From positions 1-26,377 of the IMG/VR virus record IMGVR_UViG_3300021961_000541: a stretch of 26,377 bases of DNA; one strand, 5' to 3'. This DNA comes from a virus. Positions 5,927-24,666 of the stretch are shown in pieces. Positions within the stretch are counted from its first letter, which is position 1. The number at the start of each line of letters is the position of its first letter. The position numbers and the translations under genes are program-made. The notes below the pieces were generated by a model, which worked only from the letters and a program-made list of their open reading frames with translations, had not been told where the DNA came from and ran no database searches.

Positions 5927-6134
5927 TTCAATCTCCTATTTCCATGGTTGCAAGGTCTTCGGCTCTATGGTTTATTTCAGGATGGTCGTGAATCCATCGT
6001 ATTTGTTCAGGAGTTAGTCCCCATGTTTCGCATGTTGAACTTGGACCATCGCCGCCAAGTCCATACCACCTCACATAACCATCGCCGCAATCTGAACAGT
6101 TGTAAACAATTCCGTCGCCATTTTTGTCAGCCAT
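5747..6134. repeat. Tandem duplication: two 180-base copies, 208 bases apart
   Basis: The copies are 5747-5926 and 5955-6134. They are the same length with no insertion or deletion visible and encode matching 60-residue domains. The 28-base spacer holds the end of the short paralogue and the ribosome-binding site of the long one. Confidence 0.85.
5928..6134 (-). CDS. Short paralogue of the adjacent Ca-loop/Cys domain (68 aa)
   Basis: This gene consists of the 60-residue domain alone, then diverges (LATMEIGD, stop). It keeps the DxNGDG loop, SDCGD and STCETWGL, but has Ser for one Cys of the neighbour (position 32) and an extra Cys at 13. The stop lies one base before the start of the longer copy. 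It precedes the longer copy in transcription and probably arose by tandem partial duplication. Function unknown. Confidence 0.78.
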   Translation of the reverse strand: MADKNGDGIVYNCSDCGDGYVRWYGLGGDGPSSTCETWGLTPEQIRWIHDHPEINHRAEDLATMEIGD

Positions 6135-11300: not shown

Positions 11301-13008
11301 TTGTTCCATCAACACTAAAAACAATTGCATCGTAAATCCCACCAGCAGTTGCGTTGGCTTGGTTGATAGCCCAACGAAGAGTTCCGTTGGAACCATCGTC
11401 CGCAAGGCTTGTTACAACTATTCCTACTGGCGCGACGATATCTGCTGGCACAAACGAGATGGTTGAACCATATGCCGAACCTGAAGCATTAGTAACTTTT
11501 AGACGGAAGTAGTAAGTAGTTGAACCAGTCAAACCTTCAACAACTGTTGAAACCGTTGAAAGCGATGTGCCAGTAAAAGTTCCCGAAACAGGAATATCAA
11601 CTACCGTGCCAGAGAAGTCTGATGTAGTGCTGTATTGGAATACTGCGGTAGAACTAAAACCGTTAGGGTTCAGAGTTCCTGAAAGAGTTACAGGACCGTC
11701 GTCAACGGAGACTGTCGGCTCCTCTGATGAAACAATTGGTGCATCCGCCGCGAGGGTATCAAATTCAAATACTGCGGACTCTGTTTCACCAGTTTCGTTA
11801 GTCGCAACGATCTTTGCGTAATAAATTTCACTCGGGTCAAGACCAGTGATCTCTGCATCAATAGCCACCTCGTCTGTGCCAGTAAATGTCCCCATTGAGA
11901 CCGAACTAGAAGTACCAAAATCTGGGTCAGTTGAGTAAAATAGTTCTGCCGTAGTGGAGAAACCTTTTGGGTTGACTGTTGATGCAACGGTTGCGGAAGT
12001 TTGACCAATGCCGCTGACTACGGGTGCACCAAGAACTGGAGCATTATTGCCGTCTGCCGAAAGCACATAACTGATACGGAAAGATGTTGAAGCGCCAGCG
12101 CCAAGCGTTGGAACATTCAGAGCAACATAGATACCTGCGTCGGCATACATCTCACCGACATTGCCAAGATAGGTTCCACTGGTCGCCAATGTGTTTCCAG
12201 CATTCCAAATATCGGCAGGATCTGGTGAAGAGAATCCGCCAGTTTGTCTCGCTACCCGGGCGCGAGCATCAAACGACTGAAGAGCAATAAACGCGTTATT
12301 TCCCCAACGGGCTGTTGCTTGCGCCTCTGTCCCTTGACCAGTCACAGCATTGCAAGACTGAAACATATTCGTTCCAGCCTCTGAGCCAGCACAGGTCATT
12401 GAGCCAGAACCTGTTGCATTGTCTGGGTCAAAGCCACGACCAAAGAAGACATCACTAATTGCATCACTAGTCGTATTGGTGAGCGTCACATCCGTATGAA
12501 GCGCCTGACCTGCCGTTGGTACGCAATACCTCTGCGAGATACTGACACCGTTATACGGGCTTGCACTAATCCAAGAAACACACTGAGATGAACCAGAGTT
12601 CTGAATGTCAGAAACTGCGCCAGAAACACCTGTTTGGTAGTGGTCATTTAGACCTAGGCTTGAACCGACCTTTACCTGCCAACCTTCAAATGGTGAACCC
12701 GGACAGAAGTAATCACCATCGTCTGTGGTGCTTCCCCATCCGTCCATTTCACGGTCAACACGGAAACCAAGGCAGTTAGCAGGGTTTGCGTGGAAACCGC
12801 TAGGGACACTCGTTGAACCAAAAGCGCCGTTTGCTCTTACACCAACCTCGGCGAACTCGCCCTGAAGGAACCCTTGCCCGTTAGAAATCTGTGTATTCGT
12901 TGCAAATGTTGCCTCAGCGGCAGAGACAGGGACAAAAAGGGCGAGCAGAACTAACGAGACGATGAGCGCTGACACGCGCCGAAATGACAAATTAGATCGT
13001 TGAAGCAA
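8308..13008 (-). CDS. Giant exported beta-helix/repeat protein with C-terminal membrane segments (1566 aa)
   Basis: Domains in order (approximate residues): signal peptide 1-30 (RR then ALIVSLVLLALFVPVSA); a Cys-containing beta-rich domain 31-325; two Fn3-like domains 330-520; a right-handed beta-helix opening with a CSLREA-like segment (VTSLADDGSNGTLRWAINQAN) 523-845; a third Fn3-like domain to 960; a Thr/Pro linker 955-1060; an acidic region of exact 17-residue helical repeats 1086-1323 with looser copies to about 1410; an Ala/Gly hydrophobic segment 1424-1448; a Gly/Ser linker; and two likely membrane helices 1519-1563. The TTG at 13008 is used because no ATG or GTG precedes the signal peptide; an internal TTG six codons on is an alternative. 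This is built like a bacterial surface protein rather than a virion protein. It could coat the infected cell, alter adhesion or exclude other phages (inference). Confidence 0.88.
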   Translation of the reverse strand: MLQRSNLSFRRVSALIVSLVLLALFVPVSAAEATFATNTQISNGQGFLQGEFAEVGVRANGAFGSTSVPSGFHANPANCLGFRVDREMDGWGSTTDDGDYFCPGSPFEGWQVKVGSSLGLNDHYQTGVSGAVSDIQNSGSSQCVSWISASPYNGVSISQRYCVPTAGQALHTDVTLTNTTSDAISDVFFGRGFDPDNATGSGSMTCAGSEAGTNMFQSCNAVTGQGTEAQATARWGNNAFIALQSFDARARVARQTGGFSSPDPADIWNAGNTLATSGTYLGNVGEMYADAGIYVALNVPTLGAGASTSFRISYVLSADGNNAPVLGAPVVSGIGQTSATVASTVNPKGFSTTAELFYSTDPDFGTSSSVSMGTFTGTDEVAIDAEITGLDPSEIYYAKIVATNETGETESAVFEFDTLAADAPIVSSEEPTVSVDDGPVTLSGTLNPNGFSSTAVFQYSTTSDFSGTVVDIPVSGTFTGTSLSTVSTVVEGLTGSTTYYFRLKVTNASGSAYGSTISFVPADIVAPVGIVVTSLADDGSNGTLRWAINQANATAGGIYDAIVFSVDGTITLTSDLPAITEGVTITGTGMATTIIDGDNLYRSLNNNGTRTIAVSDMTFKRGKATNGGIGYTNNGGTFTFTRVKFTDMTSGSAWFQSNANVTTFIDSEFSALASGVKSDYGSTPSALSQTDSDYTNRIYIDGSTFTNNTYGVYTERFVKINNSQFTDNTYGAILRGLNRQQVINSVFTSNSVGVYFASWIPTTWTPGAGNQTVSGSTFNGNTTAIQFANNFNNGSTTYNGVSANSWSTSTGNTFGATTINTANYSGTGYVTEDDTITAAYFNAVANLTAVANSDGSVNLDWDEPTSSNTAIYGYSVSFYDLDEIGGTASGGWGVWTNQGTDYSLGEWMFSGSNPVTTGFGPVRFGIKAMSGQCVGVGSGSCTYGPEATVDATVLDPTPVTTTTSSTTTTTTVYVPPVDSGTTTTVYQPPVVVIPPVEETTTTTSTVPVAVVPTDDTTTTLPQYPDPEEGSTTTTLPTETEPEIELPTITVPKYEEEILREDEEENPWGDSTGTPEEFDELPADATPEEIGAVIEEVDFTEISDSDFDNTIDAVFDNIENPEDVADVIGSFLEADISDEQFDAVLDKVFDGPMTANETTEILEELLDGPVTITQLQTIMDKVFEDISDTKETVAVLTNLFNGPLSNEELDSVMEAVFSEDATVDQMSDVMTDLLGKNLDAKELDAMFEAAFDGDLTDKETIDLIVDVLAEDLTSEALGSALGAVFDEEVSNEVLVKTFTAVLGNELNEDSVEVIVNVLESESISEAQVATVVTLIIEQEGGVDAEQATELATSPKVLESISGEQATEVFDAIIVAEVSEEAGAEIAEALAEAPTDVKEAFEEEINVFAGVFDTYVALGSEINVGDRRTVIAVGAAVSLAGAAVALGGASPSSGGGAPSGGPGSPSGQNNNVARKPEEEEMNGELAWDGVEWIKQLSIFRYNNGVKILDWGLFVKKFIYGFLNLGFTISGSLIVYLTLSGTIQRIAGISSILAFVGAMYLHMREPDNN
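9040..9753 (-). repeat. Fourteen consecutive 17-codon repeats in the giant protein
   Basis: Residues 1086-1323 divide without gaps into 14 units of 17 residues, such as DEQFDAVLDKVFDGPMT and ANETTEILEELLDGPVT. Each reads as an amphipathic helix, L/I/V at inner positions, a turn at D/N-G-P or equivalent, then S/T/D before the next unit. Alternate units are more alike, giving a 34-residue superperiod. Looser 17-18-residue units continue to about residue 1410. Confidence 0.8.
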
Positions 13009-13110: not shown

Positions 13111-13881
13111 ATGGCTGGCGCAGGCGTCAAACTGTTTACTGCCGGTAGTCAATTAACCGCAACCGAAGTAAACACATACTTAATGGATCAGGTTGTCGCA
13201 TATTTTGCGGACAGCGCCGCCCGTGATGCTGCTTTCGGAGGCGCGGGCGAACCGTCTTTAAGCGCAGGTCGTCTTGCCTATCTTTTTTCCGACAACAAAC
13301 TTTACTTGTACGACAACACAAACAATTGGGTTGAAATTGGCGCACAGATAGAAGACGGTGAAATCACTACAGCCAAAATTGCTGCACTTGCAGTCACCGC
13401 AGCCAAGATTGCTTCTGATGCAGTGACTACAGCAAAGATTTTGGACTCAAATGTCACCACAGCAAAGATTGCTGATAGTGCTATAACCTCAGCGAAAATT
13501 GCTGACGGCGCAATTGTTAACGCAGACATCAGCACCACAGCCGCTATTGACTTAGGCAAACTAGCAGACGCAACAATTGACGAAAAAAGCGCTTCATATA
13601 CGCTCGTACTGACCGATAAAAACAAGTTTATTAAAATGAGCGTCACCTCAACAGCCAATACCGTCACGGTGCCGACGAACGCTTCTGTGGCTTTCCCTAT
13701 AGGTTCACAAATCCATATCATTCAGTACGGCTCTGGCAAGACACAAGTAATTCCTGTTTCAGGAACTGTAATCCTTTATGCGACCCCTGGCACTTACTTG
13801 CGAGCACAATACTCGTCGGCGACACTCCTTAAGTGCGACACGAACATTTGGATGCTGATGGGTGATTTGAGTGCCTCGTGA
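13111..13881 (+). CDS. Minor tail/tail-tip protein with decapeptide repeats
   Basis: The first 75 residues (GVKLFTAGSQLTATEVNTYL... YFADSAARDAAF... LAYLFSDNKLYLYDNTNNWV) are a familiar N-terminal module of actinophage minor tail proteins that probably anchors to the tail tip. Residues about 85-140 are decapeptide repeats of the type (I/V)TTAKIADSA, expected to form a trimeric fibrous stem. The last 100 residues are a beta-rich head (KFIKMSVTSTANTVTVPTNA... IHIIQYGSGKTQVIPVSG) like those on phage and bacterial surface fibres. Trimerisation and receptor contact are inferred. The next gene overlaps by 4 bases. Confidence 0.87.
   Translation: MAGAGVKLFTAGSQLTATEVNTYLMDQVVAYFADSAARDAAFGGAGEPSLSAGRLAYLFSDNKLYLYDNTNNWVEIGAQIEDGEITTAKIAALAVTAAKIASDAVTTAKILDSNVTTAKIADSAITSAKIADGAIVNADISTTAAIDLGKLADATIDEKSASYTLVLTDKNKFIKMSVTSTANTVTVPTNASVAFPIGSQIHIIQYGSGKTQVIPVSGTVILYATPGTYLRAQYSSATLLKCDTNIWMLMGDLSAS
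13363..13530 (+). repeat. Decapeptide coding repeats in the tail-tip protein
   Basis: Five to six 30-base units encode (I/V)TxAKIxxxA. They resemble a short-repeat array on the DNA but stay in frame and vary at wobble positions, so they are protein repeats. Confidence 0.8.
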
Positions 13882-14372
13882 TTCCAGGCAATACATCTAG
13901 CCAAGGGAAGTACGTCGACCCACCTACATCGGTTAGTGCTTCGGCAGGCAACGCTCAAGCAACAGTTACTTTCACTCTCCCCGTTTATGACGGCAAAGGA
14001 ACTGCAACCTACGTAGCCACCTCTAGTCCAAGCGGTATTACTGCATCTGGTGCGAGTTCTCCGTTGGTCGTAACTGGATTAAGCAACGGCACCTCTTACA
14101 CCTTTACAGTCTCGACAATTAGTGGTTATGGAGTAAGTGCCACCTCTGCGGCTTCTGCTGCTGTGACACCAACAGCGCCAGCGCCATCGTTTCCACCGTC
14201 TTTCCCGCCGCCCTCTTTCACGCCAGTATGTACGCCAGGCAACGAGTGCTTAAACGATTCTTGTTCGGTTTGTGGCTCACCATGTTGTGTTGGTGGCGTT
14301 AAACAATGCTCATGCAATGTTTATTTAAATTCAAACTGTTCAAGAAGTTGCCCTAGTCCTTCATGCTGCTAA
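13878..14372 (+). CDS. Fn3-domain protein with Pro hinge and 12-Cys tail
   Basis: A 164-residue protein starting at a GTG in a GTGA overlap with the preceding gene. Residues about 14-99 form one fibronectin type III-like domain (PPTSVSASAGNAQATVTFTL ... SYTFTVSTISGYG). Residues about 99-115 are a Pro/Ser/Phe hinge. The final 48 residues hold 12 Cys, including two CC pairs (SVCGSPCCVGG, PSPSCC). Fn3 domains are common adhesive modules on tail tips. The Cys-rich end could be disulfide-knotted or metal-binding. No signal peptide is present, so it probably acts on the virion. Confidence 0.82.
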   Translation: MIPGNTSSQGKYVDPPTSVSASAGNAQATVTFTLPVYDGKGTATYVATSSPSGITASGASSPLVVTGLSNGTSYTFTVSTISGYGVSATSAASAAVTPTAPAPSFPPSFPPPSFTPVCTPGNECLNDSCSVCGSPCCVGGVKQCSCNVYLNSNCSRSCPSPSCC

Positions 14373-14402
14373 GATATAAAAAATAATATGACCGTTTTGA
14401 GA

Positions 14403-14410
14403 TGTAAGGT
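14403..14410 (+). promoter_or_regulatory. TGTAAGGT -10-like element 6 bases before the 14417 start
   Basis: TG plus TAAGGT (14405-14410) matches TG-TAnnnT. The ATG follows after exactly six bases (AGCAAT) and no ribosome-binding sequence fits better, though AAGG in the hexamer itself could act as one. The 44-base intergenic gap leaves room for a separate start of transcription. Confidence 0.38.
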
Positions 14411-14416
14411 AGCAAT

Positions 14417-14767
14417 ATGAGCAATCAATCAGAAAGTCTTCCAGATATTTACTATGCACTGGTTGTAGATGGTGAAGTCGCGTCTAATTTTAAAAATTGC
14501 GTAGCATTTGAAGCAATCAACGCAGCATTTCAATCTGACCCTACAATTGTACTAAACGATACTTTGGATGAAAATTTTCACAGTTACGATTTTATTGTTG
14601 ATAACGAAGTTGCTCATATCCAAAGAATTCCAAAAAACGACGAGTTCATGAATGCGATACTCCAATCAAATCCAACTGTTATTCAACTGACCGATGAGCA
14701 ATTAGAGATAGGTGTTGGTCCTGGTTGGTTTTGGAATGGCACAGAATTTACAGAGACACCACAATGA
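14417..14767 (+). CDS. Phage protein with internal duplication (YALVVD-type), tail-associated
   Basis: A 116-residue protein made of two related halves. The first is YYALVVDGEVASNFKN plus NAAFQSDPTIV (residues 12-45). The second is YDFIVDNEVAHIQRIPKN plus NAILQSNPTVI (57-92). The end GPGWFWNGTEF resembles short phage proteins found beside tail-fibre genes in cyanophages and other marine phages. The role is not established; a fibre-assembly or accessory structural role is possible. It overlaps the zinc-ribbon gene by 4 bases. Confidence 0.78.
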   Translation: MSNQSESLPDIYYALVVDGEVASNFKNCVAFEAINAAFQSDPTIVLNDTLDENFHSYDFIVDNEVAHIQRIPKNDEFMNAILQSNPTVIQLTDEQLEIGVGPGWFWNGTEFTETPQ

Positions 14768-14991
14768 ACGCTTGGCAAGAGTACAAAAAAAAGTTAGGTA
14801 CCACACGCCCTTGGGACGTGCTAAACCCATCTACTGTATATTTAGCAGAAGAAGAATCACAAAATAGATGGTCTATTTGCGAAGAATGCCCTAGATTGCT
14901 CAAGACCACTAATCAATGTAAAGAGTGTGGTTGTTTTATGAAACTCAAAGTAAAACTTAAGGAAGCAGTGTGCCCACTCGGTAAATGGTGA
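14764..14991 (+). CDS. CxxC...CxxCGCFM zinc-ribbon protein, copy A (75 aa)
   Basis: The ATG at 14764 overlaps the preceding stop (ATGA); a longer frame upstream merely runs through the previous gene. Key residues are CEECP (39-43), CKECGCFM (52-59) and CPLGKW (70-75), giving up to six Cys for one or two metal sites. A paralogue with the same ordered motifs sits on the opposite strand at 19373-19546. Proteins with this signature occur next to 2OG oxygenases in T4-like cyanophages as far as I recall. Here an oxygenase gene follows after 3 bases. Function unknown. Confidence 0.82.
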   Translation: MNAWQEYKKKLGTTRPWDVLNPSTVYLAEEESQNRWSICEECPRLLKTTNQCKECGCFMKLKVKLKEAVCPLGKW

Positions 14992-14994
14992 TTT

Positions 14995-15525
14995 GTGAAA
15001 ACGGTATTAATTGGCGCCATCGCCATTTATCGTTCGGTAATTAAAAACCCCCAATCAATAGTTGAAGAGATAAAAAAATCCTACGGCGATTTATGGGAAG
15101 ATTCATTGCTCTACGGATGCAATAAAAACTCAAACATTAGAACAAGTAGCGAAATAAAAAATATTCCCGAAGACATAAACAGCAACCTTGATTCAGACTT
15201 CAAACAAGCCGTTAGTGATTATGTGTGTAGGTTTAATGCCCCTATATCTTCTGGTTCAAGTGCTTATATTTTATTAAAATATGAAGTCGGTCAGGAATTT
15301 AAACTACATTATGACGACTCTTTTGCGACCCCTAGAAGAATAAGTGCAGTTGGGTTCCTGAACGACGACTACGGAGGTGGACAGTTATCTTTTGATTTAA
15401 TGAATTTTACCTACGAACCAGTAGCGGGTGACATAGTTGTTTTCCCATCAAACTTTCCCTATATGCATGCTGCCAGACCAGTAATAGAGGGCACTAAATA
15501 TTCGGTAGTAAATTGGTGGAATTGA
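14995..15525 (+). CDS. 2OG-Fe(II) oxygenase, prolyl-4-hydroxylase-like (A)
   Basis: A 176-residue enzyme with the signature Y-x-V-G-Q-x-F-x-x-H-x-D (YEVGQEFKLHYDD: His105, Asp107). The distal iron ligand is His158 in MHAARPV, and the 2OG-binding Lys168 is in GTKYSVVNWW. LNDDYGGGQLSF is the usual strand pair between them. Members use Fe(II), 2OG and O2 to hydroxylate protein side chains or other substrates in the cytoplasm. The start is GTG, three bases after the zinc-ribbon gene. The gene is followed after two bases by a second oxygenase of the same type. Substrate unknown. Confidence 0.88.
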   Translation: MKTVLIGAIAIYRSVIKNPQSIVEEIKKSYGDLWEDSLLYGCNKNSNIRTSSEIKNIPEDINSNLDSDFKQAVSDYVCRFNAPISSGSSAYILLKYEVGQEFKLHYDDSFATPRRISAVGFLNDDYGGGQLSFDLMNFTYEPVAGDIVVFPSNFPYMHAARPVIEGTKYSVVNWWN

Positions 15526-15527
15526 AT

Positions 15528-16163
15528 ATGGACTACATAGATGTTGGTGACCCAAAATTTGGACTTCGTGTTTATAAAAATGCAATAAAAACCTCACTTC
15601 CAATAATAGAAACTATAGATAAATCAATTAACAATTCATCAAAATTACCGCTTGTTTGGTCAAAAGCATTGGTTGGTCATAATCAGAAGATGTTGGATTA
15701 CAGAGATTGCTGGGATTGTAAATTAAACCCTCAAACGGTTGATTCACTCAAGGAAGAACACAATGATTTCAAAACGCTTTATTCAGAAATCGTATTATCA
15801 ATAGCATCATGTGTCGAGGATTATTCAAAAAAATATGATTTAAACCTTAGGTACATGGAGGCAGTCAACTTTGTCAAGTATGGAGTTGGCCAGCATTTTG
15901 ATACCCATTCAGACCATGGTTTTTCTTACGTTTGTACCGTATCTACTGTTGCTTATCTAAATGATAACTATGAAGGCGGAGGGCTTTGGTTTAAGCATCT
16001 TGACCAAACAATAAAACCAGAAGCAGGAGATATTGTAGTTTGCCCGTCAACATTTATCTATTCGCATGCATCTTTGCCAGTTAAATCAGGTGTTAAATAT
16101 TCTGCAGTGACAATGTTTGACTACAACGACGCCACCCATAAAGCAGGCGGCTACTCGGGCTAA
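15528..16163 (+). CDS. 2OG-Fe(II) oxygenase, prolyl-4-hydroxylase-like (B)
   Basis: The ATG at 15528 gives 211 residues; a TTG 15 bases earlier would overlap the previous gene and is less likely. The signature YGVGQHFDTHSDH provides His127 and Asp129. YLNDNYEGGGLWF is the central strand pair, AGDIVVCPS precedes the distal His180 (YSHASLPV), and Lys190 in GVKYSAV binds 2OG. The N-terminal 110 residues are longer than in copy A and may set specificity. Spacing and motif match suggest copies A and B are related by an old duplication. The stop codon abuts the stop of a minus-strand oxygenase. Confidence 0.88.
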   Translation: MDYIDVGDPKFGLRVYKNAIKTSLPIIETIDKSINNSSKLPLVWSKALVGHNQKMLDYRDCWDCKLNPQTVDSLKEEHNDFKTLYSEIVLSIASCVEDYSKKYDLNLRYMEAVNFVKYGVGQHFDTHSDHGFSYVCTVSTVAYLNDNYEGGGLWFKHLDQTIKPEAGDIVVCPSTFIYSHASLPVKSGVKYSAVTMFDYNDATHKAGGYSG

Positions 16164-16784
16164 TTACTTTTCAAACTCAAGCCATGAAGTAAGAATATAC
16201 TTTTCGCCCTCTAGTGGTGGGTTACCTCTATGCATGTGGGTGTAGGCAGCAGGTGCCAAAACTAGACGCCCCTGAGAAGCCTCGACACGAGCAGACTGGT
16301 AAAGGAACTCTGTTTCACCACCAGACACAACATCGTTGAGATAAAGAATAATAAAAGCAAACCTTCGTCCAGTTTCAATGTTGGCATGTTCACAATGCCA
16401 AACATGATAACCACCCTGAGGAAGCGTTTTTTGTATTTTGATTGTAGACAAGACTGGTGTTGATACCGATGAAACCATTTGCGGATGCTTCATAAGATAC
16501 ATCGGGTAACACTTCATCCAGAATTGTTCCAAGAATTCATGGACACACTCATCACTCATTGATGGGTCTAATAAAAGTTCCCTCATTGCTGTCTCGGTGC
16601 CTATGTTTATTGAAAAATCTTGTTTATCCGATGTGCTTCTTTGAAACGCAATCTTGGAGCGGTACTCATAAAAATCAATAAACTTTTGACACAATTCGGG
16701 TGAGAAAAAATTATCCCACACACCTATATGGTCGCCCTCTGAGTATTGTTCCTCTTTTGAATTAGAACGGGATAAAACTGACAT
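16164..16784 (-). CDS. 2OG-Fe(II) oxygenase with HxE motif
   Basis: A 206-residue enzyme of the prolyl-hydroxylase-like fold. GGYHVWHCEHAN gives His130-x-Glu132, where most members have HxD. FIILYLNDVVSGGETEF is the central strand pair. The distal His is 183 or 185 in YTHMHRGNPP, and Lys195 in GEKYILTSW is the likely 2OG ligand. Similar proteins are frequent in cyanophages and marine phages, without known substrate. The start overlaps the end of the upstream gene by 23 bases; no closer start is available. It is the last gene of the minus operon and faces the plus-strand oxygenase stop-to-stop. Confidence 0.85.
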   Translation of the reverse strand: MSVLSRSNSKEEQYSEGDHIGVWDNFFSPELCQKFIDFYEYRSKIAFQRSTSDKQDFSINIGTETAMRELLLDPSMSDECVHEFLEQFWMKCYPMYLMKHPQMVSSVSTPVLSTIKIQKTLPQGGYHVWHCEHANIETGRRFAFIILYLNDVVSGGETEFLYQSARVEASQGRLVLAPAAYTHMHRGNPPLEGEKYILTSWLEFEK

Positions 16785-17298
16785 TTTTTAACTTCCCCCC
16801 AACTTGGTCGGTTACATCAAATCCAATTGTTGTGCGAAGGTCATGATAACTTTCAAGGACTTCAACTTTATGAAAAGTGTTACCTTCCCCAAAATAAATT
16901 TGACCAGGTTTGTTTTCTACCCGGTACTCTGAGCCATCTTTGTGGTCTCTAAAAACTGTGTTCGTTTTCTTGGGGTCAATACAAATATAACCGTGCCACG
17001 GCCAGGCGTGGTCATGCCAATCAAGTACTGCCCCCTCAGAGTGGGCATTCAGCCATGCCTGCATCCATAGTGGCTTATCGTATCCAAGAACACCTCTAAC
17101 CCTGTGTTGCAACTCCGCGTATAGGTTGTAAAAATTTAAATCTAGAGAGAGCAGGGAAAACAAATTGTAATTTGCGTGATTGGTTGTCATCTCGTGGTCG
17201 CCAAAATTGTCGTGGTACTTGAATATTGCAAAATTAAGCGATTCGTTCATTTCCTCTATGTTGTCAACGATTAGTGACGATGTTTCAAGAAATATCAC
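16762..17298 (-). CDS. Putative 2OG-Fe(II) oxygenase of the PF13759 (HxH) type
   Basis: This 178-residue protein has WHDHAWPWHGYICIDP (His95, His97, with WHG where related sequences have xSGV) and GQIYFGEGNTFHKVEV (His143), then LRTTIGFDV (Arg155). This is the layout of the 2OG-FeII_Oxy_5 group, in which a paired-His motif replaces HxD. The assignment is by pattern only, and a cupin without hydroxylase activity remains possible. The ATG at 17298 overlaps the preceding gene by 4 bases. Confidence 0.75.
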   Translation of the reverse strand: MIFLETSSLIVDNIEEMNESLNFAIFKYHDNFGDHEMTTNHANYNLFSLLSLDLNFYNLYAELQHRVRGVLGYDKPLWMQAWLNAHSEGAVLDWHDHAWPWHGYICIDPKKTNTVFRDHKDGSEYRVENKPGQIYFGEGNTFHKVEVLESYHDLRTTIGFDVTDQVGGKLKNVSFIPF

Positions 17299-18071
17299 AA
17301 AAGGTTGTCCTTTATCTCTTTAAGAATAATTTTTCTGACTGGCGAGCGGTCAAATATTTGGTATCTCTTAAGCAGGCTGGGAGTAAATTTTTTATTTCTT
17401 GTGTTTATTGCATCAGCAACAATTTCTTTAAGTTTGTGGGTTGCTTCAAATCTTTGAAACCTTATTTTTTTGTCTGTTGCAAACTCAAGGTAGCCCATAG
17501 GTTCGTCTTCTAAGTATTTTAGTTTTGTCTGCCCTTGCCATAGGTTTACTTCAAAATTGACTGGTCTCAACCAACGACCAATGTCGTACATACCTGGAAC
17601 AGCAGCGCCGTATTGGAGGTGAGGTGCTTCGTGAAACCATGGAGCCGTCATTCTCATCTGTAACGATTCTTCGCAAAAAAAGATATGCGAAAACTCAGTT
17701 ACCACAAGTAATTCATTTTCTTTAGATGGGGCATGGGCTAGTTGCATGCCCACTTGAGACATAAGGTCTGGGATATCTTTAGCCCAGTCCTGTTCAATTT
17801 TGTCTACGGCACCATCTTCTTTGAGCAATACCTCTGCTTCACTATTAAATGGACACCTAATTACATAAACATTTTGTAAAGCGTCTCGTGTTGCAGGACA
17901 TTGAAAGAAATTTTTAGTTATTTTTTGGTCACTCTTCTTGGAAAGAATATCTTTGTAGGCACTTTGTGGTTCTTGATAAACCCATTGACTAGCAAGTAAT
18001 TTGTTTCTTTCGCGATATTGGTATTCGCCATCAATCCATGGTGCCCAGTAGACGGTTATTTCGTTGCTCAT
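17295..18071 (-). CDS. Unrecognised 258-aa protein within the oxygenase operon
   Basis: The protein starts VYWAPWIDGEYQYRERNKLL, contains NFFQCPATRDALQNVYVIRC (about 54-73) and a central WFHEAPHLQYGAAVPGMYDI segment, and ends with a basic helix-rich tail. Short proteins with the NFFxCPA pattern occur in marine phages without assigned function, as far as I recall. It has no signal or membrane segment. It is locked by 4-base overlaps between two oxygenase genes, which suggests it works with them, for example as substrate-binding partner or glycan enzyme (speculation). Confidence 0.78.
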   Translation of the reverse strand: MSNEITVYWAPWIDGEYQYRERNKLLASQWVYQEPQSAYKDILSKKSDQKITKNFFQCPATRDALQNVYVIRCPFNSEAEVLLKEDGAVDKIEQDWAKDIPDLMSQVGMQLAHAPSKENELLVVTEFSHIFFCEESLQMRMTAPWFHEAPHLQYGAAVPGMYDIGRWLRPVNFEVNLWQGQTKLKYLEDEPMGYLEFATDKKIRFQRFEATHKLKEIVADAINTRNKKFTPSLLKRYQIFDRSPVRKIILKEIKDNLL

Positions 18072-18685
18072 TTAAATTTATCCCCCTCGCACCATACGAC
18101 TAATGAAAATCTCTGTCCAGACAGAACTGGACTGACTTTATGCCACATAAAAGATGGAAACAAAACAACAGAGCCTTGTTCATTTTGAATAATGTCTTCA
18201 TGTGTGCCGTCTGTTTTTCTGCCAATCATGAATTCTCCTCCCGTAAAGTCCTCAGGTTTTGATAAGAAAACAGTGGCAGAAAGTTTTCTCATAAACAAGT
18301 TTGGGCATGGGTTGGACATCAGTAGGTCCATGTGCCAATCATAGAAATCGCCCTCTTGATAAAGAGTGAATTGAGGCGGAGCAAAATATTTAAGTTCGTA
18401 TTCGTAAACCCTGTCGTTTACATTGTCTATGATTTCTTTTAATCTTTCAAACATCCAACCTATTCTCTCAAGATTAAGAGGTTCAATAAACCTTAAGTCA
18501 GAACTTCTGATTTCGGATTGGACTTGACCGCTGGCAATCTTGGCAGGCTCTAGAGCCTTGGAGTTTCCAGTGCTTATTATTTCTGCACATTCTTTTGGGG
18601 TAAAAACTTTAGAGACAACAATGAAGGGCGGTGTGCAATTATGCACTGGTTTGTCATACCTAATGTCGGATTGTGGTCTATTCAT
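18068..18685 (-). CDS. 2OG-Fe(II) oxygenase, PKHD/PiuC-like hydroxylase
   Basis: A 205-residue enzyme close to the PKHD-type hydroxylases. YQEGDFYDWHMDLL gives His118 and Asp120, RKLSATVFLSKPEDFTGGEF is the classic strand pair, and GSVVLFPSFMWHKVSPVLSG gives distal His182. Arg192 in QRFSLVVW binds 2OG. All catalytic residues are present. Cellular PiuC/YbiX-like proteins have this architecture, usually slightly longer with a C-terminal extension lacking here. It overlaps both neighbours by 4 bases. Substrate unknown. Confidence 0.92.
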   Translation of the reverse strand: MNRPQSDIRYDKPVHNCTPPFIVVSKVFTPKECAEIISTGNSKALEPAKIASGQVQSEIRSSDLRFIEPLNLERIGWMFERLKEIIDNVNDRVYEYELKYFAPPQFTLYQEGDFYDWHMDLLMSNPCPNLFMRKLSATVFLSKPEDFTGGEFMIGRKTDGTHEDIIQNEQGSVVLFPSFMWHKVSPVLSGQRFSLVVWCEGDKFK

Positions 18686-19080
18686 TGTTGTTTAAGGGCA
18701 TAAAAATCATTTATATCGCTACGATTTAACCGCCTTGTCTCTCTTTCTACTTGAGGTTGGTTCATCTCTGGATTGTTCTGCTGTGTTCTGTTGTGCAGAT
18801 AATTAATATACTCGGTACTTGCAAATTTGTAAAAGTTGTCCATCGCCGCCAATGCATCTAGAACCAACTTGGTATGGGGGTTTTTCTTAGTTAAAAAATT
18901 TTCTTTTGAAAATTCAACCACAGTAAGTAGATGCTCAATAATTAATTTTTCTAAATCTTGAAGGAGATTGGGGGTATCATCAACCGCACAAATCATACCT
19001 TCGGTATCAGACATACGAAGAACCAACCCTTCGTAGATTACGACTGGTCCTTGACTGCTTGGGAGTATTTGCGCTGCCAT
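18682..19080 (-). CDS. Unrecognised helical protein (132 aa)
   Basis: An N-terminal strand segment (PVVIYEGLVLRMSDTEG) is followed by helices (LLQDLEKLIIEHLLTVVEF, KLVLDALAAMDNFYKFASTE) and a polar Asn/Gln/Arg-rich tail. No motif is recognised. It ends in a 4-base overlap with the PKHD-type oxygenase gene and follows the 92-aa gene by 21 bases, so it belongs to the same operon. Function unknown. Confidence 0.7.
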   Translation of the reverse strand: MAAQILPSSQGPVVIYEGLVLRMSDTEGMICAVDDTPNLLQDLEKLIIEHLLTVVEFSKENFLTKKNPHTKLVLDALAAMDNFYKFASTEYINYLHNRTQQNNPEMNQPQVERETRRLNRSDINDFYALKQQ

Positions 19081-19101
19081 GGCGCAATACTAGCAAAATT
19101 T

Positions 19102-19380
19102 TTAATACTCTGGTATTTGTTTGGCTTGAATGTAGAATTCTTCCAACGAAAATTGACCATCTTCGGGAATGGCATCGCTACTGGGGAGCGAAGACAAACT
19201 GTAAATTGCCGCAAGCAATGCTCGGGCTTCATCAAAAGGCATGACGATTTCATTAGTTGTTGGATATTCCGAATCTGCCAAAATTCTATCTTTTGCTACA
19301 TTTAGATAGAACAGAAGAGAGTTTACAGCCTTAACGACATCTTCGGAATTTGTGTTGAAAGTTACAGTCCTGTTATACAT
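19102..19380 (-). CDS. Unrecognised small protein (92 aa)
   Basis: The ATG at 19380 (MYNRTVTFNT...) is chosen over a TTG 18 bases upstream because a GGAG ribosome-binding sequence ends six bases before it. The product is acidic and mostly helical (EDVVKAVNSLLFYLNVAKDR, FDEARALLAAIYSLSSL). It overlaps the end of the zinc-ribbon copy B gene by 8 bases. No family is recognised. Confidence 0.7.
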   Translation of the reverse strand: MYNRTVTFNTNSEDVVKAVNSLLFYLNVAKDRILADSEYPTTNEIVMPFDEARALLAAIYSLSSLPSSDAIPEDGQFSLEEFYIQAKQIPEY

Positions 19381-19546
19381 TTGCGCTCCATTTTCCAATT
19401 GGGCAACTAGCCGTAGCCAATTGTGTTTTTAATATCATAAAACATCCGCATTCACGACAGGTTGTTGTCAGCCTGAAATAGCGAGGACATGCCTTGCAGA
19501 TGTCAAGCCTCTCTTTAGGGAAACTAAGCGCCAGGGGTGTACTCAA
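19373..19546 (-). CDS. CxxC...CxxCGCFM zinc-ribbon protein, copy B (57 aa)
   Basis: Reading between two annotated genes reveals a frame with ICKACPRY, TTCRECGCFM and SCPIGKW, the same ordered motifs as copy A at 14764 (CEECPRLL, QCKECGCFM, VCPLGKW). The only usable start before the first motif is a TTG at 19546, just downstream of an in-frame TAG, overlapping the tail-protein gene by 23 bases. No ATG exists before the Cys pairs, so the exact start is uncertain. The paired-Cys spacing and match to copy A make it a real gene rather than a chance frame. Function unknown. Confidence 0.78.
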   Translation of the reverse strand: MSTPLALSFPKERLDICKACPRYFRLTTTCRECGCFMILKTQLATASCPIGKWSANV

Positions 19547-20534
19547 TGGCTTCTACTTTCGGGTTCGCATAGGCAGTTGATGGGGTATAGACAACACCAA
19601 ATTTTTGTGCAGGGAGTGGCAGACCAGCAATAGCATTGACTGTTGCAACAGTATTCGGTGCCGAACTATCAACTGCTGTCACCGTAACTCCAGTAGGAGT
19701 AGTTGTCGCTTGAATGTATGTTAAATACGAAGCCGAATTCGGATTGGCGACCTGTGTTGTTGAAACAGTAGATACAACTCCAGCAGTTTTCTTAATAATT
19801 TTTATATCTGAGCGATTGAAACTACTTGCAGTACCAGCATAAGTGACAGTTGTCGGCGTGTAATTGTATGGAGCGTTATAGGGGGATGGGGCTACGTAAA
19901 CACAGCATGCGATATACCCCGTACCAAACTGAACCCAAGTAGAACCATTGTAATACCAGCATCCATTGCCAAACAAAGTTCCGCTACTGCATGCCCAATA
20001 TTGATAATTACCACCAGGAGACACGCCAGGACCACCGCCTTGTGCACCATAGGTGTACGCACAGTTGCCCGTTGAATTGTTTGCGGAACCAGGACCAGAA
20101 CAATTATATGGCGCACCAGTTGTATCCACTTTGTCAGCAACAGCCGCCCACCAGTTATTGCTATCAGTAACCCAAAATGCAACACCTGCACCCGCAGACC
20201 TAGTAGTTGGCAAAGTTGCTTTTACAGTTGCGGCTACGGTGCCTGCATCAAAAGTTACAAGTGGATAAGAAGCAGCGGCGGTAGATGTTGATGCTTGGTT
20301 TGTGTCAATACCCCAAGTGCCACTTTCCGCTAACCAATCTACTGGACCCCCCGCAATTACGCTTCCGTTGTTGCTTCGCGTAAATGAATCCAAGAAGGCA
20401 GAAAGAATTGATTTGCCTTGAGCAAACCAATACGCAAATATACCATCCGTTTTATTACCCCTACCCGAGCGAGGGGACAGCGGACCACCACTTACTGCCT
20501 GACTAACTGCGCCTCGTTTAAGAAATTCAGACAT
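19524..20534 (-). CDS. Tail-associated protein with jelly-roll-like domain
   Basis: A 336-residue protein, rich in Ser/Thr/Gly/Asn. The N-terminal 40 residues (SEFLKRGAVSQAVSGGPLSP) look like an anchoring peptide. Residues about 48-140 (FTRSNNGSVIAGGPVDWLAE...TWGI, VAFWVTDSNNWWAAV) resemble concanavalin/LamG-like beta-sandwiches on phage tails. A loop with seven Cys (about 144-213) is embedded in it (NCSGPG, GNCAY, WACSS, NGCWYY, ACCVY). The rest continues the beta fold. No signal peptide is present. Adhesion to host glycans is plausible but inferred. Confidence 0.8.
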   Translation of the reverse strand: MSEFLKRGAVSQAVSGGPLSPRSGRGNKTDGIFAYWFAQGKSILSAFLDSFTRSNNGSVIAGGPVDWLAESGTWGIDTNQASTSTAAASYPLVTFDAGTVAATVKATLPTTRSAGAGVAFWVTDSNNWWAAVADKVDTTGAPYNCSGPGSANNSTGNCAYTYGAQGGGPGVSPGGNYQYWACSSGTLFGNGCWYYNGSTWVQFGTGYIACCVYVAPSPYNAPYNYTPTTVTYAGTASSFNRSDIKIIKKTAGVVSTVSTTQVANPNSASYLTYIQATTTPTGVTVTAVDSSAPNTVATVNAIAGLPLPAQKFGVVYTPSTAYANPKVEAIEYTPGA

Positions 20535-20537
20535 AAT

Positions 20538-20906
20538 TTATGCCGTGATTCGGTTGACGTATCCTGACAACGAAATAACGTTTGTAGTGCCCGCAGCCGC
20601 CACGACTGTTAGAGGTGTTGCGTTACCCTTGAGAAGCAAACCTGGAACAACAAGGTACAAACCACCTTTTGTTTTTACTGTGTATTCAATGATGTCATCT
20701 GGGTCTGTTGCGCCACCAAAACCAATTCGTACAGCAACGTCTGCTGTGTGGTTGTTTTGTGCGTAAAGCCAAACTTCTTCCAAAATAGTTGTTGAAGTTT
20801 GACCAGTGTGAATCAAAGTTGGTGAAGAAGCAATCGCTGTTGCTACAACCTTTGTTGCTCGACCGTCAGTGCTTTCTGAAAGTAGTTGTTTGCTATATGT
20901 TGCCAT
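20538..20906 (-). CDS. Small virion structural protein (122 aa)
   Basis: A short beta-rich protein (ILEEVWLYAQNNHTADVAVR, YLVVPGLLLKGNATPLTVV, ending ISLSGYVNRITA) typical of proteins encoded between fibre genes in aquatic phages. Members I recall are annotated as virion or tail structural proteins. A strong AGGAGAT ribosome-binding sequence precedes the ATG. The next gene begins three bases after its stop. Confidence 0.75.
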   Translation of the reverse strand: MATYSKQLLSESTDGRATKVVATAIASSPTLIHTGQTSTTILEEVWLYAQNNHTADVAVRIGFGGATDPDDIIEYTVKTKGGLYLVVPGLLLKGNATPLTVVAAAGTTNVISLSGYVNRITA

Positions 20907-20930: not shown

Positions 20931-22928
20931 CTAGAATACTTGCCCTGCGAGAACGAACTGGTCATTATCTACAGAACTAAAGACAAACGCCGTAGTAGCG
21001 ACCTGTGTCGTACTAGTTCCTGCTGTCGCCGTTGGTGCTGCGGGCGTACCCGTAAAGGTTGGGCTGGCAAGGTCTGCCTTTAAGTTGTCTGCCGTAGTAA
21101 CAAAAGCAGTGGTAGCAACAGCAGTTGTGCTATCAGCCGCGACTTGTGTTGTGGCGATAGTTCCTGTAGGGAGAGTTGGTGTGCCTGTAAATGTCGGAGA
21201 AGCCAATGGTGCTTTATCGTTTAACTGTGTTTGAATCGCAGAAGTGACACCATCCAAGTAGCCAATTTCCGTATCAGTTACGTTCGTGACTCTTGCTTGA
21301 ATGACGGTCGTATCAACAGCGATAGTTGCTGTGGAACCTTCGCCTGCGGTGTGAGTGACAGTGATACCTGTTCCAGCCGACACATCAGTCATGTAGTTGC
21401 CGGTTGTGTCAGTGCCGAGAGTAATTGCTTGGTCTACCCAGTTAGTGCCGTTGTACATCAAGAAGTCTTTATCGGCAGCAGCGGTGATGACTACATCCGT
21501 CAAGTTGTCTACGGTGAGTGCTGTTGCGCTTGAGACGCTTGACGCAGTTGCAATCGCTGAATAAGTTGAACCGTCGTTCGTCAATTCCCATGCATCGTCA
21601 GTTTCATTCCAACGGAGAACAACATTCGTGGACGAGCCACGCTCAATTTCTATGCCAGCATTCTCTGTCGGCGCGCTAGTTACGTTGTTATTAAGAACAA
21701 TAATATTGTCATCAACAGTTAAAGTTTCTGTGTTGATTGAAGTAGTAGTGCCCGAAACAGTCAAGTTACCTGTCACGGTCAAGTTGTCGTCAATTGTGAC
21801 AGTTCCGCCTGCTGAGTCAATTGTCAAATCACCCGATGTTGTGTCAATTTCGTTAGCGCCAGTGACACCAACTTTAATTGCATCGGCTGTTACGCCAGCA
21901 AAAGTTACGTTGTCGGTTGTCGCTACAGCCTGACCGATTGACAGCGAATGCGTTGTGCCTTCGCCGGTAGTAGCGGCTGTTGAAGTAACACCCGTACCGC
22001 CAGTAATTGTGGCTACATAATCACCAGTTGTTTTAGTTCCGAGAGCAACCGTGTTGTCTGGAAGAACTACTGTTCCTGTAAAGGTGGGCGAAGCAAGGTT
22101 TGCTTTGAGGTCTAGGGCGGTTTGACCTGCTGTGGATACTGGTTTATTTGCATCCGAAGTATTGTCAACGTTTCCTAAACCAACATCACCTTTTACTAAA
22201 CCAGCAGGTGTAGTAATTGTTTTATTCGTGAGTGTCTGTGTTCCTGTTGTTGTGACAAGAATAGATGTATCGGCAATTCCGTGGATATTTGTTGTATCTG
22301 CCTCGTGGTTGGTAAGCGCCGTAGCAGCATTACTTGCAGTGGTTGAGGCGGTCGAATCAACATACACTTTTGTTGAAGCATCAGTGTTGCTTACTGGTGT
22401 GGGAACTGTAACTGTTCCAGTAAAGGTTGGCGAAGCAAGTGGCGCTTTTGTGTCAATCTGAGTTTGAATAGCAGAAGTTACGCCGTTCAGATAACCAATT
22501 TCTGTATCAGAAACATCTGCAACTCTGGCTTGAATAACACTTGTATCAACAGCGACAGTTGGTGTTGCGTTTTCGCCAGAGTTGTTGGAAAGCGTTACGC
22601 CAGTACCAGCAACAAGGCTTTGAACAAAAGAGCCGATTGTGTCGGTTGAAAGGTTTACAGCGTCATTAATCCAAGCAGTACCATTCCAGCGCAAAAAGTC
22701 GCCGTCAGCGGCACTAGTGATAGTTACATCACCAAGGTCATTGAGGACAGACGCAGCAAGGTTTGTGGTGATTGAATAGGCTAAAGAAGTCCACGCCGTA
22801 GAGCCGTTACCAATCTTGAACTTGCCAGTGTTGGTCTCATAGCCAATCTCGCCCGCAGCAAGTACAGCATTACCCGACGTCCAGTTAGACGAGGTGTCTC
22901 GTCGTAGAAGAATTCTCTTAAAAGCCAT
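20931..22928 (-). CDS. Long tail fibre with Mtd-N-like head and PLASPTFTGT repeats
   Basis: Residues 1-51 (FKRILLRRDTSSNWTSGNAV... GEIGYETNTGKFKIGNGSTA) match the N-terminal module used by many fibres to attach to the tail. The shaft contains four KA(P/N/D)LASPTFTGT units, each followed by a Pro-rich step, and a GDVGLGNVDN element. There is a long internal duplication: residues about 62-177 and 471-586 align throughout (LNDLGDVTITSAADGDFLRW versus DNLTDVVITAAADKDFLMYN, then DTEIGYLxGVTSAIQTQ). The product probably trimerises and mediates host binding. A GGAGGAG ribosome-binding sequence precedes the ATG. Confidence 0.9.
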   Translation of the reverse strand: MAFKRILLRRDTSSNWTSGNAVLAAGEIGYETNTGKFKIGNGSTAWTSLAYSITTNLAASVLNDLGDVTITSAADGDFLRWNGTAWINDAVNLSTDTIGSFVQSLVAGTGVTLSNNSGENATPTVAVDTSVIQARVADVSDTEIGYLNGVTSAIQTQIDTKAPLASPTFTGTVTVPTPVSNTDASTKVYVDSTASTTASNAATALTNHEADTTNIHGIADTSILVTTTGTQTLTNKTITTPAGLVKGDVGLGNVDNTSDANKPVSTAGQTALDLKANLASPTFTGTVVLPDNTVALGTKTTGDYVATITGGTGVTSTAATTGEGTTHSLSIGQAVATTDNVTFAGVTADAIKVGVTGANEIDTTSGDLTIDSAGGTVTIDDNLTVTGNLTVSGTTTSINTETLTVDDNIIVLNNNVTSAPTENAGIEIERGSSTNVVLRWNETDDAWELTNDGSTYSAIATASSVSSATALTVDNLTDVVITAAADKDFLMYNGTNWVDQAITLGTDTTGNYMTDVSAGTGITVTHTAGEGSTATIAVDTTVIQARVTNVTDTEIGYLDGVTSAIQTQLNDKAPLASPTFTGTPTLPTGTIATTQVAADSTTAVATTAFVTTADNLKADLASPTFTGTPAAPTATAGTSTTQVATTAFVFSSVDNDQFVLAGQVF

Positions 22929-23166: not shown

Positions 23167-24666
23167 GTGAAAATAACTGTTTTGGGCGGTGGGACTGCGG
23201 GCTGGTTGGCGGCATTCATGATTAGCAAAGTTCAACCAAGTCATCAAATAACCGTTATTGAATCTAGCGAGATAGGCATAATTGGTGCCGGGGAAGCCAG
23301 TACGGGCACTTTGACGGACATCATAAAAGGCTCACGTTTTGACTACGGATGCGACGAGACAGAGTTTTTTAAAGAAACAAACGCAACTCCAAAGATGGCG
23401 ATTACTCATGTCAATTGGCGAAAACTTGGTCACGAATATATTGCCCCAATAGATGGCACAAGCGAATTGGGGTACGGAACCTTCCCATCCTTCATGCATG
23501 TCATCGCAAACGACATCCCTATGCACCTGGCTAGCAAAAATGGGTATCTGACAAGCAAATCCTTGTCCCCATTTCACTTTGATGGCGAGGTTTTGATGGC
23601 AGGAAATAATTACGGCTACAACTTTGACGGTCACTCGGTAGGACAATATTTTAAGCGACGATGCCAATCAGTCAAAGTTATTGACGGCAAGATTTCAGAT
23701 GCAATCATAGATGAGTCAGGGAATGTCAAGTCTGTAATACTCACATCTGGGCAACAAGTAGAGTCTGATTTCTTTATTGACGCAACAGGTTTTGGTCGAG
23801 TACTCCCCAAAAAACTAGGCGTCAAATGGGAATCTTATGCAAAACATCTGCCAGTCAATACAGCAATGCCGTTTATTCTTCAGCACAAAGAAGAATTCAG
23901 AATTGACCCAATAATTGTCGCCTACGCACAAAAATCAGGCTGGATGTGGATGACCCCAACTCAGGACAGAATGGGTTGTGGTTACGTTTTTGATTCTCAC
24001 TACACAAGTAGAGAAGAAGCCCAAAAAGAAATAGAAACACTTTTAGGACACGAAATTACGCCAATAAAATTTATTGACTGTGATGCAGGCAGACTGTCCG
24101 AAGTTTGGAAAAAAAACTGTCTATTTATCGGTCTTTCGTCAGCATTCCTAGAACCACTAGAAGCAACAAGTATTCATGGGACAATAATACAACTTCATTA
24201 TTTTATTTTTAATTACCTTAAAACAGACATTGAATCAACCTGTAATTGGGCTTCGGTTGCCTCATACAATAAAATGATAGGTGAACTCTATGAGGGGTTC
24301 AAAGATTTCATCAGTATCCACTATGCCAGCGAAAGAACCGATACAGAGTTTTGGCGCGACATATCCAAGCCTGAAAGGCGCACCGAAAGAGCATTGTTAG
24401 TTCTTGAATCATCAAAACACAAGACCGTTCTTGATGATGAGTTGAATGTGATGATGGGTTTTGCCGGTAATGGAATCTACAACTGGGTTCTTGCAGGTCT
24501 TGGCTACATTTCTAAAGAAATGGCATCAAAAGAATTAAAGCAATACAACCAAGAAGAACAAGGCAAAAAAGATTATGAATACCATATAGAGCATATGGAT
24601 TTGATTTCAAAAGATTTTATGGACAATACAGAATTTATTGAACTTTTAAGAGCAAGCAGGTTTTAA
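23167..24666 (+). CDS. Flavin-dependent tryptophan-halogenase-like enzyme
   Basis: The 499-residue length is typical. The FAD-binding GGGTAGWLAA lies at 7-16 and GAGEAS at 40-45. The catalytic-lysine region reads NATPKMAITHVNW, with Lys76 matching the conserved halogenase lysine (K79 of PrnA/RebH by pattern). The hallmark WxWxIP motif is present as WMWMTP (259-264), with Thr for Ile. FLEPLEATSIH (327-337) is the conserved halide/flavin-loop segment. Such enzymes use FADH2, O2 and halide to halogenate aromatic substrates. A cyanophage homologue, VirX1, is reported to prefer iodide. FADH2 must come from a separate reductase, and none is in the window. The GTG start fits a leaderless mRNA. It lies alone on the plus strand between fibre genes. 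Confidence 0.93.
   Translation: MKITVLGGGTAGWLAAFMISKVQPSHQITVIESSEIGIIGAGEASTGTLTDIIKGSRFDYGCDETEFFKETNATPKMAITHVNWRKLGHEYIAPIDGTSELGYGTFPSFMHVIANDIPMHLASKNGYLTSKSLSPFHFDGEVLMAGNNYGYNFDGHSVGQYFKRRCQSVKVIDGKISDAIIDESGNVKSVILTSGQQVESDFFIDATGFGRVLPKKLGVKWESYAKHLPVNTAMPFILQHKEEFRIDPIIVAYAQKSGWMWMTPTQDRMGCGYVFDSHYTSREEAQKEIETLLGHEITPIKFIDCDAGRLSEVWKKNCLFIGLSSAFLEPLEATSIHGTIIQLHYFIFNYLKTDIESTCNWASVASYNKMIGELYEGFKDFISIHYASERTDTEFWRDISKPERRTERALLVLESSKHKTVLDDELNVMMGFAGNGIYNWVLAGLGYISKEMASKELKQYNQEEQGKKDYEYHIEHMDLISKDFMDNTEFIELLRASRF

Follow-up and report, generated by a model that had tools for sequence, protein, structure and literature searches.

We analysed a 26,377-bp IMG/VR viral fragment (IMGVR_UViG_3300021961_000541; the whole stretch is called the window hereafter) of an aquatic phage and conclude that its central locus is probably a virion-adhesin modification cassette, composed of fibre-type proteins, DUF6171 zinc-ribbons and oxygen-using modifying enzymes. 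The locus consists of two facing arms, each of which would encode a fibre-type protein with an adjoining small DUF6171 zinc-ribbon protein and such enzymes. In the plus arm, fibre-type genes are followed by zinc-ribbon A and then by 2-oxoglutarate (2OG)-Fe(II) oxygenases; the minus arm, followed downward from position 20534, comprises the fibre-like gene 19524 (genes are named by their lower coordinate), zinc-ribbon B, two small unknowns, a PKHD-type 2OG oxygenase, gene 17295, an HxH gene and an HxE 2OG oxygenase. We propose that the prolyl-4-hydroxylase (P4H)-type plus-arm oxygenases 14995 and 15528 would hydroxylate prolines in the linker of the FN3-Cys protein (13878). What the analysis shows is the identity of the genes, the conservation of their linkage, the folds and motifs of the enzymes and a pairing of proline arrays with oxygenases; from these we infer the reactions, their substrates, the role of the zinc-ribbon and the benefit, with hydroxyproline, glycans and halogens on the virion.

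The plus-arm substrate was approached by comparing the FN3-Cys protein with its homologues. In these, the segment joining the FN3 domain to the Cys-rich end can hold an array such as (PPFF)n, (SFPP)n, (VTPP)n, (PVVPP)n, PPPT or poly-P, variable in sequence from one homologue to the next yet always proline-rich; the equivalent in the window is VTPTAPAPSFPPSFPPPSFTPVCTP. The gene at 7626–8150 of locus L009 encodes a homologue with a long array. An enzyme-substrate pair predicts arrays of this kind, different in sequence and equal in proline, that track a hydroxylase. In a substrate-side test, loci were drawn by FN3 homology alone, avoiding a choice by enzyme or zinc-ribbon, and a proline array was called at 10 of 30 residues (12 of 30 in the first tests). 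Of the FN3 proteins with such an array, 33/36 had a 2OG gene within 4 kb, as did 1/29 of the array-less ones (P 6e-14), although the sequences are related and the P values therefore overstate independence, an effect lessened by clustered and paired tests. With a single representative per 75% FN3 identity cluster, 2OG genes were near 16/19 array and 1/18 array-less proteins (1.3e-6), and at 65% identity near 8/9 and 0/9. Among 29 nearest-FN3 pairs discordant for the array, 25 favoured the proline member, none went against it and four were ties. Raising the threshold to 12 shifted only one locus (32/35 versus 2/30), and of all residues in the tails proline differed by far the most (median 15.5 versus 3 per 30 aa; 8e-12).

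The exceptions were few. Three array proteins had no 2OG gene inside 4 kb, and one of them (locus L264) has two further along; the single array-less FN3 protein with a 2OG gene (L228) has a Thr-rich stretch and a PF11397-type gene. The FN3-drawn test followed an earlier comparison of proline-rich genes with 2OG genes in an endolysin-drawn set, which was not significant (P 0.2) because the arrays there include unrelated proteins of 1,400–1,500 aa. A comparison of the FN3-Cys protein with cultured phage records gave no match. With its proline-rich linker, the FN3-Cys protein is likely to be the plus-arm substrate, and the arrangement expected of a hydroxyproline-rich glycoprotein, in which a proline-rich substrate adjoins a P4H, is found here. 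The original prediction, made from the DNA letters alone, had proposed hydroxylation of virion fibres or host surface molecules. The proline-array/oxygenase pairing gives much better support to a virion protein than to host surface molecules; the idea of virion hydroxylation is supported, and sharpened to the FN3-Cys proline linker as the likely plus-arm target.

Both zinc-ribbons pass the DUF6171 (PF19668) cut-off of 27 bits, with scores of 30.5 and 33.2. Across 98 zinc-ribbon copies in 83 loci, a 2OG gene was found within 1 kb of 47 copies, and in no case was the nearest 2OG gene at 1–3 kb; 36 copies had one within 500 bp, against 19.1 (standard deviation 3.0) expected from random placement in the same loci. 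The CGCFM zinc-ribbon, 2OG oxygenases and fibres belong together, as suggested in the original prediction, and co-occurrence of zinc-ribbon and 2OG genes was above background: 80 endolysin-drawn loci contained both zinc-ribbon and 2OG genes in 9 cases, zinc-ribbon alone in 0, 2OG alone in 17 and neither in 54 (Fisher 1.3e-5), i.e., 2OG genes in 9/9 loci with a zinc-ribbon versus 17/71 without, in a set that is not fully neutral since the endolysin belongs to the same phage lineage. The gene just downstream of the zinc-ribbon was most commonly a PF13640 oxygenase (14/72), followed by PF11397 (4/72), with one GT61, one hydroxyproline-arabinosyltransferase (HPAT) and a single radical-SAM/SPASM gene. 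In L012, L013 and L014, DUF6171 is fused to a GT60-type PF11397 domain (E 4e-39).

Cultured phages also carry the zinc-ribbon. In Synechococcus phage S-H35, the DUF6171 gene comes right after four 2OG genes, of which one is annotated as prolyl 4-hydroxylase; in S-CBS2 the zinc-ribbon directly follows a gene annotated as tail fiber, and in Sf-FP1 it lies among virion structural genes. Stenotrophomonas phage Moby has a zinc-ribbon with no annotated fibre or oxygenase neighbours, so this protein also occurs in other settings. A literature search for DUF6171 found no papers. Most likely, the zinc-ribbon would dock the enzymes on the fibre or on its chaperone.

Several further arrangements were seen around the zinc-ribbon. 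In L030, L035, L076 and L081, DUF6171 is fused to the C-terminus of proteins that by eye resemble tail-fibre chaperones and that gave no Pfam match outside DUF6171. Five to eight PF13640 oxygenases are packed beside the zinc-ribbon in L040, L045, L072, L017 and L084, with up to 11 per contig. The radical-SAM/SPASM gene directly follows the zinc-ribbon in L182 (2722–3771), and a gene of the same length occurs in L228 (1865–2914); both adjoin a PF11397-type gene, and L228 also holds the Thr-rich FN3 protein. This arrangement is possibly another fibre modification.

To follow the history of the arms, relatives were collected by searches with the 17295 protein and the zinc-ribbon proteins (loci labelled L###). 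The two facing tail-plus-oxygenase arms of the original prediction were confirmed: the stop codons abut at 16163/16164, and six related contigs (L004, L005, L008, L009, L010 and L094) also have a plus arm facing the minus arm, a recurrence of layout that is more than chance. Facing orientation is not obligatory, since extra oxygenases in L096 lie on the same strand as the rest. The minus arm is a fixed, strictly inherited operon, whose order is kept in L003, L004, L005, L007, L008, L009, L010, L088 and L094 down to ~45% identity (the HxH gene is absent from L010 and L094) and, with gaps, in L098–L100 and L105. The plus arm is variable, and ends with a halogenase in L004, a PF11397 transferase in L005 and L008, GT61 in L010, and DUF6065 with extra 2OG genes elsewhere.

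The arms had also been described as two versions of one module, a view that is not supported. Zinc-ribbons A and B form separate old groups in the zinc-ribbon tree, the four PF13640 enzymes of the window fall in four separate places of theirs (orthologues of 15528 are in L004, L005, L094, L040 and L084), the tail proteins 13111 and 19524 gave no sequence match when compared with each other, and only the minus arm is fixed. These trees and the unmatched tail proteins rule out a recent duplication; the mirror is a shared layout and not a recent copy, because the zinc-ribbon groups and the four oxygenase groups are separate. The minus-arm oxygenases, whose neighbours are conserved, are vertically inherited orthologues and not part of a set of five unrelated recent acquisitions.

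The variable plus-arm content and a halogenase that shifts position are also what one would expect of a cargo hot-spot, in which a variable region beside the tail genes gathers mobile auxiliary genes and the association is functionally meaningless. We consider this unlikely, as it fails to predict that oxygenases track the proline content of a neighbour (33/36 versus 1/29; 25:0 pairs), that the minus-arm operon is fixed, or that zinc-ribbon–GT60 and HPAT–2OG fusions exist.

The plus-arm enzyme 14995 is prolyl-4-hydroxylase-like by motif, sequence and fold, and is predicted to hydroxylate peptidyl proline. Its iron triad (HxD...H; H105, D107, H158) is invariant in 17 aligned sequences, and the 2OG-binding K168, ten residues after H158, is K or R in the alignment. 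The nearest PDB sequence is a bacterial P4H (2e-7), and for an AlphaFold 2 (AF2) model with a pLDDT of 92.1 the top three Foldseek matches were Chlamydomonas P4H-1 (2jig, 4e-11), an algal P4H with a (Ser-Pro)5 peptide (3gze, 7e-11) and the P4H of chlorovirus PBCV-1 (5c5t, 1e-10). Enzyme 16164 is also nearest to a bacterial P4H (2e-6), and 18068 to 3dkq (PKHD/PiuC, 4e-17).

The closest P4Hs by sequence include 5v7y, solved in a study of EF-Tu modification, and the P4H–EF-Tu complex 4iw3 is in the fold list of 14995, so the oxygenases might target the translation proteins of the host, in the way that bacterial P4Hs modify EF-Tu. This is improbable in our estimate, because it leaves the linkage to proline arrays and fibres and the fused glycosyltransferases unexplained. 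A PBCV-1 prolyl 4-hydroxylase with viral peptide substrates has been described (Eriksson 1999, as cited in PMC9301287 and PMC7019647), so that the chlorovirus and the cassette proposed here share a virus-encoded P4H fold and proposed substrates among the virus's own proteins. PBCV-1 is a eukaryotic algal virus, whereas the present loci belong to tailed phages and have several enzymes per locus, an adjacent putative fibre substrate, a halogenase and, in relatives, fused glycosyltransferases. Within the enzyme family, marine phages are rich in 2OG genes (76/153 cyanophages, PMC10452541), and cyanophage clusters (S-SCSM1 with 24; S-H35) belong to the same PF13640 group (phrog_61); for S-SCSM1, mass spectrometry has identified virion proteins (PMC9602691). 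The published suggestions for the cyanophage 2OG genes are reprogramming of host nitrogen/2OG metabolism or DNA repair, with no substrate named (PMC3037559, PMC9602691). For the window enzymes we give such roles little credence, given their operon position after fibre genes, the P4H fold and the proline-array pairing. We know of no zinc-ribbon/FN3-Cys fibre cassette in the PBCV-1 system.

In many relatives, GT60-type PF11397 or HPAT transferases would then add sugar to the hydroxyproline, and the product would be a hydroxyproline-rich glycoprotein like plant extensins. Transferases are found as PF11397 in L005 and L008 and GT61 in L010, and also in L012–L014 and L155. In L155, HPAT and PF13640 domains are united in a single protein of 720 residues, on either side of a middle region that we read as resembling a second oxygenase fold; its gene comes directly after those of a zinc-ribbon and a PVVPP FN3 protein, in a locus that also holds a DUF6065-like gene, a halogenase and more 2OG genes. 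HPAT matches occur in L213 and L214 as well, and since neither a 2OG gene nor an array was seen nearby there, HPAT-like genes are not exclusive to the system. The likeness to plant and algal extensins with P4H and HPAT lies in the P4H-1-like fold, the proline-rich repeats and the HPAT-family domain in L155, L213 and L214; in phages the context is the virion, HPAT is fused to 2OG in one protein, and the window has no HPAT. Hyp-linked glycans require prior prolyl hydroxylation, and in protist Skp1 hydroxyproline glycosylation PhyA acts with a GlcNAc-transferase (PMC8724618). The Skp1 order of P4H then GlcNAc-transferase resembles the phage relatives, whose transferases belong to PF11397 (GlcNAc), with the difference that in phages the transferase is fused to the zinc-ribbon. 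The GT60 group also includes Ser/Thr GlcNAc-transferases, so the acceptor of the phage PF11397 transferases may be hydroxyproline or Ser/Thr.

The minus arm would be a second, older operon with other 2OG enzymes and a DUF6065-like protein, which together with a mobile halogenase would probably hydroxylate or halogenate side chains of the Tyr/Trp/Asn-rich fibre 19524, whose homologues are in many loci followed by a zinc-ribbon. The motifs of the halogenase are intact (GGGTAGW, WMWMTP), in keeping with the family pattern of GxGxxG, WxWxxP and catalytic Lys and Glu, and its K76 and E332 match RebH residues in an alignment. Its place in the locus varies: it is flanked by fibres in the window, L005 and L007, sits between the arms in L003/L004, comes right after a 17295 homologue in L019, L025, L044 and L100, and adjoins a DUF6065-like gene in L052, L211 and L329. 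In the last seven of these loci, the halogenase abuts the 17295 homologue or DUF6065-like gene (0–4 bp), which suggests a halogenase–DUF6065 pair.

The 17295 protein may be a distant relative of DUF6065 (PF19541): it had no Pfam hit, and hhalign gave a probability of 78% (E 1.9e-5). Its homologues occur alongside zinc-ribbon, 2OG and halogenase genes, and DUF6065-type proteins would presumably be partners of the halogenase or of 2OG enzymes. A search of genome contigs found no cellular homologues of 17295, its AF2 model (pTM 0.77) had no significant PDB match, and its profile showed no direct homology to a 244-aa protein of L098, though the latter resembles DUF6065. Assignment as a dCTP deaminase/dUTPase-like protein was not adopted (E 6e-3, low TM). 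A literature search for DUF6065 found no papers.

Flavin halogenases commonly act on free tryptophan, which would suit another reading, in which the enzymes make or alter a small molecule or a glycan of the host surface and the halogenase takes free tryptophan or a metabolite as its substrate. The phage halogenase VirX1 (PDB 6qgm), of the same family (3e-41), is reported to iodinate diverse substrates, according to a title cited in PMC10452541; the window enzyme is closer by score to bacterial tryptophan halogenases (1e-54) and, unlike VirX1, sits in a fibre/2OG locus. We give a small-molecule product only a slim chance, as halogenase relatives are mostly in fibre/zinc-ribbon/2OG neighbourhoods and P4H-type enzymes act on peptides. 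Modification of phage DNA bases by 2OG oxygenases and glycosyltransferases, as in TET/JBP phages, fits the enzyme combination and weak secondary Tet_JBP scores and is the most improbable of these alternatives, given that PF13640 is the best family throughout with Tet_JBP below cut-off, that the transferases are of protein/hydroxyproline type, and that the scanned window proteins showed no cytosine methyltransferase.

Besides the relatedness of the sequences, several points weigh against an adhesin-modification cassette. The modifications themselves are predictions from genes and models. In the window the proline linker is itself short, with 10 Pro in 25 residues, and no recognised glycosyltransferase, of the hydroxyproline type or otherwise, was present among the window proteins scanned. 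Long proline-rich phage proteins in L179 and L192 have no 2OG gene nearby, and about half of the zinc-ribbon loci lack a 2OG gene. HPAT homologues in L213–L216 were without zinc-ribbon, 2OG or strong proline array in the fetched stretch, and loci drawn by GT60 had a zinc-ribbon in only 22/79 and a 2OG gene within 4 kb in 14/79. The putative minus-arm substrates are the least certain part.

The cassette would yield rigid, protease-resistant or glycan-coated host-contact proteins. The locus points to specific proteins, down to particular residues, as substrates of these enzymes and suggests that the target of phage halogenases may be a protein. If true, it would mean hydroxyproline-type protein modification in phage virions and provide compact natural sets of substrate, hydroxylase, glycosyltransferase and adaptor. 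We also put forward, tentatively, a wider possibility: aquatic tailed phages may make extensin-like adhesins from a fibre protein with a proline array, using a P4H of their own, transferases that add GlcNAc or arabinose to hydroxyproline, and the zinc-ribbon as an adaptor, with a sister arm that halogenates and hydroxylates a second fibre. Many of the abundant 2OG oxygenases and halogenases found in aquatic phages could have this as their main role.

The features are listed in Table 1. All open reading frames named in the original prediction were found, and most of its gene starts were kept. Zinc-ribbon A was moved to the ATG at 14764, which overlaps the upstream stop as ATGA, and oxygenase 15513 probably to the ATG at 15528, by comparison with the L004 orthologue. 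The extent was right for the arms and left out the halogenase (23167–24666) and the Mtd-type fibre (20931–22928) of the same neighbourhood. Each arm is probably one transcript, since most gene junctions in both arms overlap by a few bases; in a promoter scan, promoter-like sites were no commoner than in shuffled sequence. Gene 13111 precedes the FN3-Cys gene also in L009, L010, L092 and L094, and the 14417 protein is perhaps a tail-fibre chaperone, judging from its PGWFWNGTEF motif.

Table 1. Coordinates of the two arms and neighbouring genes in the window.
Feature	Position	Strand	Evidence
Fibre / minor tail protein, opens plus arm	13111..13881	+	phrog_8780 minor tail 6.4e-23; phrog_892 tail fiber 4e-17
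FN3 + proline-rich linker + Cys-rich knob protein	13878..14372	+	PF00041 2e-6; GTGA overlap with upstream stop
Proline-rich linker VTPTAPAPSFPPSFPPPSFTPVCTP, 10 Pro in 25 residues	14163..14237	+	translation and DNA
Small protein, PGWFWNGTEF near C-terminus	14417..14767	+	no family above cut-off
Zinc-ribbon A (DUF6171 / phrog_13558), C-x2-C...C-x2-CGCFM...CP..KW	14764..14991	+	PF19668 4.9e-7, over cut-off
Prolyl-4-hydroxylase-like 2OG-Fe(II) oxygenase (H105, D107, H158, K168)	14995..15525	+	PF13640 4e-13
Second plus-arm 2OG oxygenase (HSD...H...K)	15528..16163	+	PF13640 1e-11; listed reading frame start 15513
2OG oxygenase, HCE motif, last minus-arm gene	16164..16784	-	PF13640 2e-8
Oxygenase-like protein, HDH...H...R motif conserved	16762..17298	-	phrog_2696 1.7e-42; phrog_81 7e-7
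Virus-only protein	17295..18071	-	phrog_17480
PKHD/PiuC-type 2OG oxygenase	18068..18685	-	PF13640 4e-14
Small conserved minus-arm operon protein	18682..19080	-	no family; colinear in L003-L010, L088, L094
Small conserved minus-arm operon protein	19102..19398	-	no family; colinear in relatives
Zinc-ribbon B (DUF6171)	19373..19546	-	PF19668 6.9e-8
Putative fibre protein, Tyr/Trp/Asn-rich, directly before zinc-ribbon B	19524..20534	-	no family
Fibre-associated protein	20538..20906	-	phrog_30535 1.4e-41
Tail fibre, Mtd N-terminal domain	20931..22928	-	PF18454 1.4e-12
Flavin-dependent halogenase	23167..24666	+	PF04820 1.6e-87

Outside both arms, the window holds a further oxygenase, of the TauD/CsiD 2OG type (2720–3490, plus strand), and a small ferredoxin (4508–4756, minus strand; Fer4_15 2e-16) that is a possible electron donor. 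The adjacent minus-strand genes 5252–5926 and 5928–6134 have near-identical N-termini (MAD[RK]NGDGIVY...), a tandem duplication with one copy short. Adjoining the plus arm, and kept beside it in L010 and L094, a 1,566-aa protein (8308–13008, minus strand) has a signal-like N-terminus, FN3, a Thr/Pro linker and C-terminal hydrophobic segments.

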